Assembly (NCBI GenBank): GCA_002781365.1
Contig: PETN01000020.1
Span: forward strand, 1-64,000
Direction of reading: 5' to 3'
From: Sulfurimonas sp. CG01_land_8_20_14_3_00_36_23
Lineage (GTDB): Bacteria > Campylobacterota > Campylobacteria > Campylobacterales > Sulfurimonadaceae
Length of the DNA stretch: 64,000 nt
The notes below the pieces were generated by a model that was not told the origin of the DNA, ran no database searches, and saw only the letters and a program-made list of their open reading frames with translations. The position numbers and the translations under genes were made by a program. The first letter of the stretch is position 1; every line of letters begins with the position of its first letter. This document shows, piece by piece, positions 32,212 through 37,130 of the stretch.

Positions 32212-32433
32212 TTATTTGCTTAAGAATTTCTTCTTTTTACTTATAAATGCGAAAAAATGCGAAAATCTAGACTCTTTAAGTCCTGCTTTTGCACGTTTTA
32301 AGAGTATATACAGGTTTAGGTTCCTATCCTTTACCATAATCAAAGATAATAATTCTCTACTTTTATTCTTAGAATGTATAGATAAAAAAACATCTTCTAA
32401 ACCATCTCTCTCATTTTTAGTAAGTGTACTCAT
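32212..32433 (-). CDS. small basic protein paired with an HTH regulator
   Basis: A 73-residue lysine-rich protein with no signal peptide. Its start overlaps the stop of the upstream HTH gene by four bases (ATGA type), so translation is coupled. The sequence includes LEDVFLSIHSKNKSRELLSLIMV, then ILLKRAKAGLKESRFSHFF and a basic tail. I do not recognise the family. Its coupling to an HTH protein suggests a regulator-partner or toxin-antitoxin-like unit, but nothing in the sequence proves this. Confidence 0.55.
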   Translation of the reverse strand: MSTLTKNERDGLEDVFLSIHSKNKSRELLSLIMVKDRNLNLYILLKRAKAGLKESRFSHFFAFISKKKKFLSK

Positions 32434-32675
32434 CTTAAATCCTCAAGTTTGTTTATCTTTCTAACAGTTCTTACAATCTCTTCATCATCTAAAGTTCCAA
32501 GCATTTTCATGACAACCACAGCAGCTTGTGGCTTAGCACGTCCAAGCTTCCAATCCTGATAGGTTCTCATAGATATACCTAATGAATTTGCCATATCTTT
32601 TAAGGATATTTTTTTTCCATTATTTTTAGACTCTATTGAGTTGTGAAGAATATTAAATAGATCATTGATTTGCAT
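32430..32675 (-). CDS. XRE-like helix-turn-helix regulator
   Basis: An 81-residue protein with an HTH at about residues 22-50: KKISLKDMANSLGISMRTYQ, then DWKLGRAKPQ. The pattern fits XRE/Cro-type DNA-binding domains. It is the first gene of a two-gene unit and faces a very AT-rich 208-bp intergenic region with repeated TATA-type words and a CGG-centred palindrome. This region is probably its own operator. The target genes cannot be told from the window. Confidence 0.75.
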   Translation of the reverse strand: MQINDLFNILHNSIESKNNGKKISLKDMANSLGISMRTYQDWKLGRAKPQAAVVVMKMLGTLDDEEIVRTVRKINKLEDLR

Positions 32676-32883
32676 GGATGTATTATACGGATAATAACCT
32701 TAAATATACATATTAAATATATATATATGAGTTTAAATATACTTATTGTACAAAATATATATGTTTATATATCTTTTATATGTTTATACATTCTATATAT
32801 TGTGTTTAATATACGGAAAACCGTGTATTATTTTGTGAGAAAAATTGCACGTAAGATTTTGATTTTTTTTAGCAGAGAAAAAG
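32676..32883. promoter_or_regulatory. extremely AT-rich promoter region with inverted repeat
   Basis: The 208-bp gap between the HTH gene start and the end of the fapA-like gene. It has several TTTAAATATAC/TATATAT-type near-repeats (about 32700-32800). At 32808-32829 it has AATATACGG and CCGTGTATT around AAAA, a 9-bp inverted repeat with one mismatch that is compatible with binding by a dimeric HTH protein. No ORF is supported here. Confidence 0.5.
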
Positions 32884-34557
32884 TTAGAGGTTTATTGGGA
32901 TAATTTTATTGACAGGATGTAAGATGATTTGATCTTCTCTTGTTTCTAAAAAGAAAGGTTCGTAGGCTTGTGCGCTTGTTTTATAGACTAACTCATCACC
33001 GTTATCGAGTGTGAAGATTATTGTGTTTAATCCTAAAAGTGCTCTTTGAATAGTTATAGTTGCACTTTTTGTAGAGTTTTTAACTTTATCTTTTTCAGTT
33101 ACTAATTTACTGATTTTCTCTTCAAGCAGGGGGACTTTAGATAAATTATGGCGCTTGGCATCTTCTAAAGAATCTTTTAAATCTTGTATCTCTTTATCAA
33201 TAAAGTAAATCTTAGAAGTGAGTATAGGAACTTCTTTATAATTTATTTTAAAAATATTATCTTCACCGCTAACAGTTTTTACAGTGATTGAGTGAGATGC
33301 ATACACTTTGAGATTATTTTTAACTGTGCCAATAGTTACATCTTGCGCATATATCACTCCACCAAGGGCTGATTCAACATGCACCGTACTAGCATGAACA
33401 ATTCCTCCTTCTAAAAGAGTAATATTCGCATCCTGACACCTGAGTGTTCCTTTATGCCTATTGATCTTTGCAATTTTTGCAAATTGGGAAGAGTCTTTGT
33501 GGGTAGCTCCATCTATTTGAAGATTTACAGCTTCTATGATACTATTCGCACCAATATGACCCGTAATATGAATCGTTTCTGACGTTAATTCGACTCCAGC
33601 ACCGACACTATCTTTATTTGTATCAGCTTGTGAGACATAGACCTCTAAATTATTCTCTTCTTGCTTGGAAATAGAGGTGTGAAGGCGCGATATTCCTGCG
33701 ACTCTTACTTTGTTCTCCACTAAAAGTTTTTTATCAGTTAAGGTAACATAACCTTTTACTTTGCTTATGTAAGATTTTCTTCTAGAATCTTCTTCAATGA
33801 GTACACTTGCTTCATCTATCTCTATGTCTAAATCATGTACATTTGTTTTTGACTCAGCTTCTATTATTTTACCAAAGCAGTTAAAACCTTTTTTCCCATA
33901 TAAAGGTTTTAAAAACTCTATAAGAAGTTCCTCTTTGTCTACTTCAATAAACTCTTTGTCTGATTTTTTCTTTTGGAAGTGCATAATAAGCTGACTCTCT
34001 TGAGTGAGTTCAGGTTCTAAACCTTCAAAAAGAGGAATTTTAATTTTTTTAGTAAACTTACCTGCATATAAGTATTTTACAAACTTTTTAAGAGTATCTA
34101 TCATTGTTATATCAAAGATATTGATTAAAATCCCATTTTGAATTTTTATCTTGTTAAATTCTTGAACTAATAAAATAAAAATCTCTCTAGCTTTGTAATT
34201 TTTATATGGGATTTTTGAATCTGGATGAATAGTAATTTTAGGGTGTGTAGAAAAGAGTTCAAAATCTATAGAGTAAATTAAATCTAATTTTGGATGTTTT
34301 TTCTTTTTTGCTTCTATAATGTAAACTTGTTGAAACTCGAGATGCTCATTTAAAATTTTTTCTTTCTCTATATATTCTTCATATACATTTCCATTAAAAA
34401 GTGTAAAGTCTGGAAATGAAGATGTTTTGATGTAAGTTTTAGCAGATTTTATAGTAAAATCCGACTCTTCAAAGGGAATATTGATGCTACTAGCATAGGA
34501 TTGCATTGATTTTAAGACATTCTTTGTTTTAATCAATTTTGCTTTTGGTTCACTCAT
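32884..34557 (-). CDS. FapA-family (DUF342) protein
   Basis: A 557-residue protein of the FapA/DUF342 family, also called flagellar assembly protein A domain. It has an N-terminal helical region (1-250), then the right-handed beta-helix-like domain, in which short strands recur with glycine and asparagine turns (ITGHIGANSIIEAVNLQIDG, VHASTVHVESALGGVIYAQD). A coiled-coil hairpin follows at about residues 455-500 and a C-terminal strand-rich end. DUF342 proteins have been linked to polar or membrane-associated assembly, and their exact role is unresolved. It is the third gene of an operon with an HTH protein and a cyclase-like protein. Confidence 0.8.
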   Translation of the reverse strand: MSEPKAKLIKTKNVLKSMQSYASSINIPFEESDFTIKSAKTYIKTSSFPDFTLFNGNVYEEYIEKEKILNEHLEFQQVYIIEAKKKKHPKLDLIYSIDFELFSTHPKITIHPDSKIPYKNYKAREIFILLVQEFNKIKIQNGILINIFDITMIDTLKKFVKYLYAGKFTKKIKIPLFEGLEPELTQESQLIMHFQKKKSDKEFIEVDKEELLIEFLKPLYGKKGFNCFGKIIEAESKTNVHDLDIEIDEASVLIEEDSRRKSYISKVKGYVTLTDKKLLVENKVRVAGISRLHTSISKQEENNLEVYVSQADTNKDSVGAGVELTSETIHITGHIGANSIIEAVNLQIDGATHKDSSQFAKIAKINRHKGTLRCQDANITLLEGGIVHASTVHVESALGGVIYAQDVTIGTVKNNLKVYASHSITVKTVSGEDNIFKINYKEVPILTSKIYFIDKEIQDLKDSLEDAKRHNLSKVPLLEEKISKLVTEKDKVKNSTKSATITIQRALLGLNTIIFTLDNGDELVYKTSAQAYEPFFLETREDQIILHPVNKIIPINL

Positions 34558-34570
34558 TTTTTCCCTTACT

Positions 34571-35242
34571 TTAGTACGTTAGTAAATCGCTGTAATCATA
34601 TTTAGAAAAGTCTAAATAGAGTTTTCCACTTCTTTGAATAATTCTTATATCTGTATCATAAACAGCTAAAAATCTTTTTTTAATGACTTTTCGTTGATAC
34701 GCTCTTAAGTTGAGTGTTTTTAGATACTCTCTAAGCTCTACACATCCAAGTGTTGCCATTGGCAAAGGTTGTTCACTCTTTTCAAAGCTTTCAACATCAT
34801 GGATTGTTTGTGTTTGTTCGAGCATAAGTTTTGTATTAACGAGTTCTAAAATATTTTTTAATTGTTCATCTTTTGAAAAATAGACTCTTTGTATTTTATC
34901 TATCTCATCACGAAGCATTTGCTCTTTATCATCTATAAGTTTATCTACTTTAGCTTCTAATTGTAAGATTTTATCTTTTAAATGTTGGTTCTCTCTTTGG
35001 TAGAGCCCTAATACAGTTGCTACAGTGGTTTTAGGTCGAGCTACTGCATTCTGAACTGTGGCAGGAACTTTTTTTTTGGCTATCTCTTCTTGCTTGTTTG
35101 GCTCTAATATCTCTGATTCTACAAAAATGTAAGTAACTCCGTTTTCTATAGTATAGTCAAGTTTTTTTGCTTTGAGTTTTGAATTGACCATCTCTCTTGA
35201 CATTTTAAAACGTATTGCATACTCATCTGGTGTTAGTCTCAT
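34571..35242 (-). CDS. DUF3972-like HTH and coiled-coil protein
   Basis: A 223-residue protein. The start is set at MRLTPDEYAIRF, because AAGGGGA lies eight bases upstream while the GTG six codons earlier precedes that site. The N-terminal segment MRLTPDEYAIRFKMSREMV has an HTH-like form and resembles DUF3972, a family restricted to Campylobacterota. A coiled coil (residues about 75-130) and a C-terminal domain with REYLKTLNLRAYQRKVIKKR cut over residues 170-190 follow. It lies 13 bases upstream of the fapA-like gene and 22 bases downstream of the cyclase-like gene. Confidence 0.7.
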   Translation of the reverse strand: MRLTPDEYAIRFKMSREMVNSKLKAKKLDYTIENGVTYIFVESEILEPNKQEEIAKKKVPATVQNAVARPKTTVATVLGLYQRENQHLKDKILQLEAKVDKLIDDKEQMLRDEIDKIQRVYFSKDEQLKNILELVNTKLMLEQTQTIHDVESFEKSEQPLPMATLGCVELREYLKTLNLRAYQRKVIKKRFLAVYDTDIRIIQRSGKLYLDFSKYDYSDLLTY

Positions 35243-35264
35243 TAAAGTCCCCTTTGTCACTTTC

Positions 35265-35918
35265 TTAAATCATTGAATTGAATTTGAGATTTGGCGGATT
35301 GATGATTCCTGTCTCTCGTAGCCAAATCAAGCACCCTTTTTTCTCACCACCATGTTTATCATGAAAGCTATGCATCGCGGAGTGTTTAAACTCTCTTTGT
35401 AACAAAAGAGCATGAAAATCTTTATATATATTTATAAATTTAATTAAGTTTTCATAGGCACTCTCTGAAACCATAACTGTAGAAATGGTGTAGTTTTTAA
35501 ACTCTAAATATCGAGCACAATCATTTAACCCATCACCGATATAGTTTTTATTCCCCAATATGTCTCTAAATTCATGCACTTCTCCTGTGTGAACAGCAAT
35601 TTTTATACCTTCGAAATAGGGATATTTTTTAGAGATATGCTCGGAGAAATGATTAAAGCTTAAGCCAAGTATCGCTCCATATCCCTTAAGTTTCGGATTT
35701 AATATACAGTAAAAACCATCACCGGTGGAGATAAAACCCAAAACAAGCCTGGATAAAGTCATGTTTGAACTAGTAAGCATTTTTTCTATCATTTTAGAGT
35801 AACTTTTTGTTATGTAATCGATTATTTCAAACTGCTGATTTGATGTTAACTTTGAAAAATTTATTATATCCACGAGCACAATATCTGTCGACCACACATT
35901 TTTACTTTTTGCTGCCAT
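35265..35918 (-). CDS. class III nucleotidyl cyclase-like protein
   Basis: A 217-residue soluble protein with the class III cyclase fold. VLVDIINFSKLT carries the first metal-binding aspartate (D17), and FISTGDGFYCIL the second (D67). NYIGDGLNDCARYLE keeps the asparagine (N132) and arginine (R136) that stabilise the transition state. The usual adenine-selecting lysine (K-T-x-G-D) is isoleucine here, and the second selecting aspartate before Y-I-G is asparagine. No sensory domain is attached. It may make a different cyclic nucleotide or be a non-catalytic receptor. First gene of an operon with an HTH protein and FapA. Confidence 0.75.
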   Translation of the reverse strand: MAAKSKNVWSTDIVLVDIINFSKLTSNQQFEIIDYITKSYSKMIEKMLTSSNMTLSRLVLGFISTGDGFYCILNPKLKGYGAILGLSFNHFSEHISKKYPYFEGIKIAVHTGEVHEFRDILGNKNYIGDGLNDCARYLEFKNYTISTVMVSESAYENLIKFINIYKDFHALLLQREFKHSAMHSFHDKHGGEKKGCLIWLRETGIINPPNLKFNSMI

Positions 35919-36050
35919 CTACTCTCTATACTTTTTAGAAATTTTAACATAAAAAACGTTGTTAGTTGTGGGATAAAAAATATTTAAACAAAAGTTCTTT
36001 TAAATGTAGGGTGTAATATAATCGCAAAATTAAATTTTTTGGGGATTATT

Positions 36051-37130
36051 ATGAGCAAAGGTATTTTAGATATTGTACAACCAGGAGTTCTTTTTGGTGA
36101 AGATGTACAAAAAGTTTACGCATATGCAAAAGAGATGGGTTTTGCTATACCTGCTGTAAATGTTGTTGGAACTGATTCTGTAAATGCTGTTTTAGAAGTA
36201 GCCGCTAAAGTAAACTCTCCTATTATTATTCAATTTAGTAATGGGGGTGCTTCTTATTATGCAGGCAAAGGATTGAGTAATGAAAATGAAAGAGCTGCTA
36301 TTATAGGTGCTGTCTCAGGTGCAATCCATGTTCACATGATGGCTGAAGCTTATGGTGTTGCAGTTATTCTTCATACAGACCATGCAGCAATGAGCTTACT
36401 TCCTTGGATCGACGCACTTCTTGAAGCAGGTGAAGGATATTTTGCTTCCCAGGGAAAACCTCTTTACTCTTCTCATATGTTAGATTTATCAGAAGAGCCA
36501 TTGGCAGAAAACATTAGAATTTGTAAGGCTTATTTTAAGCGTATGAATAAAATTGGAATGAGCATAGAGATAGAACTCGGATGTACTGGTGGAGAAGAAG
36601 ATGGTGTCGATAACACGAACATAGATAACACACTTTTATATACACAACCTGAAGATGTGGCGTTAGCTTATAAAGAGTTGAGTGAAATCTCTCCGCACTT
36701 TACAATCGCTGCTTCTTTTGGGAATGTTCATGGGGTTTATAAACCTGGAAATGTTTCTCTTACTCCTAAAATACTTGATAACTCTCAAAAATATATTCAA
36801 GAAAAATTTAAAACTGGTGAGAAGCCTGTGAACTTTGTTTTTCACGGTGGTTCAGGTTCAGCACCGAGTGAAATAGAAGAAGCTATCGGCTATGGTGTGG
36901 TAAAAATGAATATAGATACAGATACACAATGGGCGACTTGGATAGGGGTTAGAGACTATTATGAAAAAAACAGAGCGTATCTTCAAGGTCAAATCGGCAA
37001 TCCAGAAGGCGAAGAGAAGCCAAATAAAAAGTACTATGACCCTAGAAAATGGCTAAGAGCAGGGCAGGAGACTCTTATTTCTAGAATAGAAGAGGCTTAT
37101 AAAGATTTAAATGCTCTAAACAGAAACTAG
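36051..37130 (+). CDS. fba: class II fructose-bisphosphate aldolase
   Basis: A 359-residue zinc-dependent aldolase. The start is ATG at 36051 with GGGGA eight bases upstream; the in-frame TTG four codons earlier lies inside that site. Active-site features are AVILHTDHAAMSLLPW (zinc histidine and catalytic aspartate), VEIELGCTGGEEDG, ASFGNVHGVYKPG (zinc histidine), FVFHGGSGS and KMNIDTDTQWA. It splits fructose-1,6-bisphosphate in glycolysis and forms it in gluconeogenesis. Confidence 0.96.
   Translation: MSKGILDIVQPGVLFGEDVQKVYAYAKEMGFAIPAVNVVGTDSVNAVLEVAAKVNSPIIIQFSNGGASYYAGKGLSNENERAAIIGAVSGAIHVHMMAEAYGVAVILHTDHAAMSLLPWIDALLEAGEGYFASQGKPLYSSHMLDLSEEPLAENIRICKAYFKRMNKIGMSIEIELGCTGGEEDGVDNTNIDNTLLYTQPEDVALAYKELSEISPHFTIAASFGNVHGVYKPGNVSLTPKILDNSQKYIQEKFKTGEKPVNFVFHGGSGSAPSEIEEAIGYGVVKMNIDTDTQWATWIGVRDYYEKNRAYLQGQIGNPEGEEKPNKKYYDPRKWLRAGQETLISRIEEAYKDLNALNRN

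Follow-up and report, generated by a model that had tools for sequence, protein, structure and literature searches.

What a cyclase-like protein without a sensor domain could synthesize, and which process it could serve, is the question raised by a locus of Sulfurimonas sp. CG01_land_8_20_14_3_00_36_23. The window, that is, the whole stretch of DNA that was analyzed, comprises 64,000 nucleotides (contig PETN01000020.1, positions 1 to 64,000). On its minus strand three genes, which we refer to as CYC, HTH-A and FAP, follow each other in this order from position 35918 to position 32884, separated by gaps of 22 bases (CYC/HTH-A) and 13 bases (HTH-A/FAP). The original prediction, made from the sequence alone, had delimited the same three open reading frames with the same gaps, which we confirm, and had proposed that they may constitute a small nucleotide-signalling or polar-assembly system. 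Here we show that CYC is conserved together with HTH-A, independently of FAP, and that within its family intact CYC was found exclusively in flagellate genomes. We propose that CYC is an accessory, flagellum-associated and catalytically competent nucleotidyl cyclase, a prediction whose full mechanistic chain we regard as evenly balanced between right and wrong. The three genes are:

35265..35918, minus strand: CYC, a 217-aa sensor-less class III nucleotidyl-cyclase-like protein, as judged from translation, fold and conservation; metal ligands D17 and D67, transition-state residues N132 and R136, base-reading positions I63 and N125
34571..35242, minus strand: HTH-A, a 223-aa protein with a MerR/excisionase-like winged helix-turn-helix (HTH) domain (residues 1-45), a coiled coil (74-146) and a conserved C-terminal domain (166-223)
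32884..34557, minus strand: FAP, a 557-aa FapA_N-domain protein (flagellar assembly protein A family), PF20250 over cut-off

Predicted fold and active site of CYC

The AlphaFold2 model of CYC, based on 15 homologues, has a predicted local distance difference test (pLDDT) score of 87.2 and a predicted template modelling (pTM) score of 0.87. A Foldseek search with this model returned 136 matches at E<=0.001 (best E 4e-9), and all 50 of the matches listed are nucleotide cyclases. In VIA-align, the model aligns with soluble guanylate cyclase beta at a Z-score of 17.5 (178 aligned residues, root mean square deviation 2.6) and with the Anabaena uridylate cyclase 8jsz at a Z-score of 14.6, the 192 residues aligned in the latter case being the longest alignment among the matches listed. 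As modelled, CYC has a clear class III nucleotidyl-cyclase fold, and the cyclase homology domain is recognizable in it. An unrelated inactive fold, one of the outcomes that had been named as contradicting the original prediction, is not what the model gives. The predicted fold and the conserved catalytic residues described below uphold the earlier view of CYC as a class III cyclase-like protein, and the absence of a sensor domain is confirmed.

It should be noted that sequence searches failed to place CYC, and that its placement is therefore settled by the fold. No cyclase match to CYC was obtained in Pfam, NCBIfam or PADLOC, and PF00211 gave no match to it up to E=10; a PF00211 search of its own genome identified two other loci, CYC not being among them. 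A phmmer search of CYC against the PDB returned noise, and a CYC profile reached guanylyl and adenylyl cyclases in the PDB at just E 0.03-0.6. The hhalign comparison with the PF00211 cyclases of its own genome was weak as well: one of them was aligned at a probability of 13% (P 0.0022), the other gave nothing useful, and the second-metal-Asp and catalytic-Asn motifs of CYC were aligned, weakly, with those of the PF00211 cyclases. Since PF00211 does not match, we describe CYC as class III-like by structure and residues, and not as a PF00211 member. A bridging homologue of 384 aa from another family (L015) is hit by the CYC profile at E 3.5e-8 and scores 23.1 bits against PF00211 (cut-off 21.9), which indicates that it connects the CYC and PF00211 sequence spaces. 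The weak matches of CYC to a 932-aa helicase-like protein of genus g14 span about 65 residues only and were judged to be due to chance. For CYC itself chance is excluded, because its fold match at Z 17.5 extends over 178-182 residues and because CYC lies next to HTH-A in 77 of 78 genomes (see below).

We aligned 79 CYC proteins, namely those of 77 family genomes with an intact gene, a damaged copy from genome G347, and one from genome G210, which belongs to another family. These homologues diverge to about 46% identity. D67 is an aspartate in 79/79 sequences, D17, N125, N132 and R136 are identical in the 78/78 rows that have a residue there (one row is gapped), and T65, G66 and G68 are present in 79/79. 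CYC therefore carries both the two metal aspartates and the transition-state Asn/Arg pair (N-x3-R) that characterize class III cyclases. Position 63 is isoleucine in 67 sequences and valine in 12. Judged by spacing and in the numbering of mammalian adenylyl cyclases, we take position 63 to be that of the adenine-reading lysine and position 125 to be that of its partner aspartate. All residues singled out in the original prediction, including the two replacements, are thus as described. The Lys and Asp/Thr pair with which cAMP (cyclic AMP)-specific class III adenylate cyclases select the base is absent, I/V63 and N125 being found throughout; hence, canonical cAMP specificity is not expected, and we do not file CYC as an adenylate cyclase. 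Compared with the class III adenylyl/guanylyl cyclases of PF00211, CYC shares the predicted fold, the metal aspartates and the transition-state pair, but it differs in its base-reading residues, in lacking a PF00211 match and in having neither a sensor nor a membrane domain. As the catalytic site is kept, activity is to be expected from the residues, and we consider it likely that CYC is an active cyclase.

CYC also resembles the PycC cyclases of Pycsar systems in being a stand-alone cyclase domain, and it matches both AnPycC (8jsz) and BcPycC (7r65) structurally. PMC11224242 gives R142/Q144/F100 as the base residues of EaPycC, whose metal aspartates are D102/D146, and F60/K104/F109 as those of AnPycC, whose metal aspartates are D62/D106. 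CYC shares neither of the base sets given there, its equivalents by spacing being L15, I63, T65 and Y70: EaPycC R142, four residues before the second metal aspartate, corresponds to I63, and AnPycC K104, two residues before it, corresponds to T65.

Conservation and inheritance of the locus

We determined the distribution of the three genes in the 151 genomes of the family, taking genomes without a match as the remainder; in the FapA tally made alongside the flagellar markers, 20 of the 22 genomes without a match were individually listed. HTH-A is a near-constant core, present in 140 genomes (manual cut-off at E 4.7e-33, above a paralogue). Near-full-length CYC was found in 78 genomes, in 77 of which it is intact, and it lies at most 188 bp upstream of HTH-A in 77/78 (median 26 bp). 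In the CYC-less genomes that were read, HTH-A opens the operon at the same place. An ortholog of FAP (list cut at E 2.5e-87, above paralogues) is present in 56 genomes, and in 55 it immediately follows HTH-A. Among the 140 genomes with HTH-A, 28 have both CYC and FAP, 49 have CYC only, 28 have FAP only and 35 have neither (P=0.39). CYC and FAP thus occur independently of each other, and the three-gene system that had been proposed is rejected: the co-occurrence check suggested with it confirmed the adjacency of CYC and HTH-A but did not extend to FAP. The unit consists of CYC and HTH-A, and the FapA gene is an independent option.

The same arrangement is seen in 15 loci of named records, mostly from metagenome-assembled genomes of Sulfurimonas, that were found by sequence. 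In 15/15, HTH-A comes immediately after CYC; next comes FAP in seven, a GH17-like membrane protein in three, nothing in four and the contig end in one. The GH17-like protein, which is multi-pass and replaces the FapA gene in three related genomes (L029:7482-9386, L030 and L031), was below the Pfam cut-off in the one case tested.

In a tree of the 79 CYC proteins, the 11 genus groups are accounted for by 10 label changes, which is the minimum; some of its branches are long, and no single branch separates genus g1 from the rest. CYC has a long history in the family, has been inherited vertically with the genera, and is being lost. Decayed copies were found in three genomes. In G335 residues 64-155 are gone and in G389 the gene contains stops and deletions, in both cases in place before HTH-A; in G347 it has an in-frame stop and a damaged N-terminus, and this genome gave no match to an operon-type HTH-A. 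G389 (1.6 Mb) and G347 (1.5 Mb) are small genomes that keep FlhA and have no FliD match, and they have possibly been caught in the course of motility loss. Searches of phage, plasmid and viral collections returned no relative of CYC.

Association with flagella and alternative explanations

Genomes were classified as flagellate when FliD_C or FlhA was present and as aflagellate when both were absent, so that the absence of a single marker was not used; FliD_C was over cut-off in 122 of the 151 family genomes and FlhA in 125. Intact CYC is present in 77/132 flagellate and 0/19 aflagellate genomes (P=3e-7), and at a completeness of at least 95% in 55/93 and 0/10, respectively (P=3e-4). The controls behave differently: HTH-A is present in 125/132 flagellate and 15/19 aflagellate genomes, and PF00211 cyclases in 60/132 and 5/19 (P=0.14). 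A second line of evidence comes from G210, in which CYC has no HTH-A neighbour and precedes, by 85 bases, a flagellin-like gene with Flagellin_IN over cut-off; FlaG and FliD come next, with no change of strand along the run. The flagellin-like protein (L092:2999-5155) has 718 aa and three Flagellin_IN repeats, with Flagellin_N below cut-off. A third and weaker line is that FapA genes, whose family the literature ties to flagella, are frequent at the CYC/HTH-A locus, not preferentially with CYC; among flagellate genomes with HTH-A the association of CYC with FAP is even slightly negative (P=0.026), which may be explained by the CYC-rich genus g5. The polar-assembly idea of the original prediction is thereby narrowed to a flagellar association, carried by the co-occurrence and by the context in G210, and no longer involves a three-gene system.

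On these grounds we propose that CYC would function as a head-to-tail homodimer, in which one subunit contributes D17/D67 to each active site and the second subunit N132/R136, and that it would cyclise a nucleoside triphosphate, canonical cAMP specificity not being expected. Since there is no sensor domain, CYC would probably be controlled by a partner protein, by the amount of substrate or through its own expression; the likeliest partner or regulator would be its constant neighbour, HTH-A. CYC would be a dispensable modulator of the flagellum, acting via CRP-like cyclic nucleoside monophosphate (cNMP)-binding proteins encoded elsewhere, or via the flagellar assembly apparatus, FapA being an optional neighbour. 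The genome encodes four cNMP-binding domains over cut-off.

Several observations weigh against this proposal. CYC is not needed for flagella, as 55/132 flagellate genomes lack an intact copy. The 19 aflagellate genomes represent about five lineages (g63 with 8, g6 with 7, g67 with 2, and g1 and g5 with 1 each), so that the P values overstate independence and the effective number is small, and one of them, G329, also lacks HTH-A and FapA. Intact CYC without a FliD match occurs in G309, G364, G370, G419 and G422, which keep FlhA and are mostly fragmentary. The flagellar context in G210 is that of one genome, CYC shows no preference for genomes with FAP, and no receptor is encoded at the CYC locus. 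Regarding the enzyme itself, the remaining four of the five AlphaFold2 models scored 71 to 43, and the assessment of the substrate pocket relies on sequence positions rather than on a ligand-bound model.

The clustering of the aflagellate genomes in few genera would also fit the view that CYC is active but unrelated to flagella, that it regulates HTH-A or, via CRP-like proteins, general metabolism, and that its absence from aflagellates reflects a few gene-losing lineages. The constant neighbour of CYC is indeed HTH-A (77/78) and not the flagellum, and the housekeeping genes nearby, which encode an aldolase, HU and an endonuclease III-like protein, are non-flagellar. However, HTH-A is kept in 15 and PF00211 cyclases in 5 of the 19 aflagellates that have no CYC, and the flagellin-like, FlaG and FliD genes of G210 provide a second context; we consider this view somewhat unlikely. 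It is clearly improbable, in our opinion, that CYC is a pseudo-enzyme, that is, a nucleotide-binding scaffold which would bind an NTP and signal by its conformation without cyclising it. The replaced base-reading residues, the lack of a regulatory domain and a locus without a receptor would agree with such a role, but four catalytic residues that are invariant among 79 such divergent proteins would be unexpected in a scaffold that performs no catalysis.

A Pycsar-type anti-phage system, in which CYC would be a pyrimidine cyclase acting with a neighbouring effector, is suggested by the match to uridylate cyclase 8jsz over 192 residues, the sensor-less single domain and the non-adenine pocket. 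Pycsar pairs its cyclase with an effector, whereas the neighbours of CYC are HTH and FapA proteins that gave no cNMP-binding, TIR or effector match, neither a TIR nor a membrane effector with a cNMP-binding domain being present. In addition, PADLOC finds nothing for CYC, HTH-A and FAP (and two weak matches for an 81-aa HTH neighbour), the chromosomal locus is stable and vertically inherited, and no relative was found in the phage, plasmid and viral collections searched, which together make this explanation highly improbable.

Returning to the proposal of a flagellum-associated cyclase, its activity would have consequences for how signalling in Campylobacterota is counted. According to a 2022 survey in mBio, which was based on PF00211 and PF01295, 21% of species have an adenylate cyclase and 86% have CRP-like proteins, the Campylobacterota adenylate cyclases that it reports all contain CHASE2, and the CRP homologues of species without adenylate cyclase were taken to be cAMP-independent (PMC9239204). 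Such queries would have missed CYC, and of the 77 family genomes in which CYC is intact, 41 gave no PF00211 match. An active CYC would mean that cyclic-mononucleotide signalling in Campylobacterota has been undercounted, and it would open to direct testing a possible messenger linked to flagella and an unusual base pocket. We found no publication on the CYC family, its pocket or its flagellar association in the literature searched, from which subscription journals were mostly absent; the fold and chemistry of CYC are of a known kind. A bolder extension, which we consider unlikely, is that a non-canonical cyclic nucleotide made by CYC (e.g., cUMP, cCMP or, read through a novel pocket, a purine product) serves specifically as a signal for the flagellum, and that many Campylobacterota hold a hidden non-defence cyclase feeding orphan CRP-like proteins or flagellar assembly. 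If true, many Campylobacterota thought to be devoid of cyclic-mononucleotide synthesis would possess it.

HTH-A, FAP and surrounding features

The HTH and coiled-coil architecture that had been predicted for HTH-A agrees with its AlphaFold2 model (pLDDT 77.5, pTM 0.29), in which a winged HTH at the N-terminus is accompanied by a helix of about 73 residues and, at the C-terminus, by a small domain. Structural matches are weak, the best being BldC at a Foldseek E of 0.04, next to Xis at Z 6.2; these values are below the level of kinship, and HTH-A was not filed with either protein. Based on the modelled winged HTH and long helix and on this weak likeness, HTH-A is probably a DNA-binding, dimeric protein. 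An internal duplication of its two small domains is not supported (hhalign P 0.35). The label "DUF3972-like" given to it earlier proved to be a sub-threshold hint, PF13118 scoring 11.8 bits against a cut-off of 26.2. HTH-A is similar to MerR/excisionase-like coiled-coil HTH proteins and to DUF3972 in its N-terminal winged HTH and long coiled coil, but differs from them in its extra conserved C-terminal domain. Its start was assigned to the ATG at 35242, with an in-frame GTG at 35260 as a possible alternative. The HTH-A profile matches 80 of 298 genomes, and a more distant paralogue is spread through Campylobacterota (L096:2064-2702, L097:4014-4652 and L099:3993-4625). The Campylobacter-type paralogue L099 also misses the DUF3972 cut-off (18 bits). 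In Sulfurimonas the neighbour of the paralogue is a YajQ-like gene, and in other genera lipoprotein-like and glutathionylspermidine-synthase-like genes are found next to it, all of these neighbours being named by eye.

FAP scores 35.7 bits against FapA_N (PF20250; cut-off 27, E 7e-9), in agreement with its earlier identification. FapA is reported to bind dephospho-EIIAGlc in Vibrio vulnificus (PMC6877527) and to sit in flagellar operons with FlgV (PMC11607428). FAP shares with FapA the FapA_N domain and differs in being one of three FapA_N proteins of the genome and a merely optional neighbour of CYC; the other two are at G000:C82:19200-19760 and G000:C32:70976-71365.

Two further features flank the genes:

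35941..35949, minus strand: extended -10-like sequence TGTTAAAAT, 22 bases 5' of the CYC ATG, read by eye without statistics
32807..32830, strand undefined (reported on plus): terminator-like palindrome just 3' of FAP

Sequences resembling TGnTAaAAT are also seen, by eye, 5' of several CYC homologues. A promoter consensus scan of the region gave 16 sites versus 18.0 in shuffles, i.e., no excess. A loose sigma-54 pattern was found 5' of 24/79 CYC genes and a sigma-28 pattern 5' of 0/79, counts made without a shuffle control, and no promoter class is claimed. There are two palindromes of this kind in the region versus 1.2 expected, so the one behind FAP gives a weak indication of the operon end. 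Upstream of CYC lies a divergent gene for a class II fructose-bisphosphate aldolase (36051-37130, PF01116). Downstream of FAP are the 81-aa HTH protein (window 32430-32675), which gave no family over cut-off and is found beside HTH-A in most family loci read, and an HU-type protein.

Finally, a genome of the same order (G044) encodes, at L102:4970-6720, a ThsB-like TIR protein (PF08937, E 1e-15) directly before a 384-aa class III cyclase-domain protein. This pair, which is located near SbcCD-like and type I-B CRISPR genes (Cas6b, Cas8b), is a candidate defence pair that would combine Thoeris- and Pycsar-like parts.

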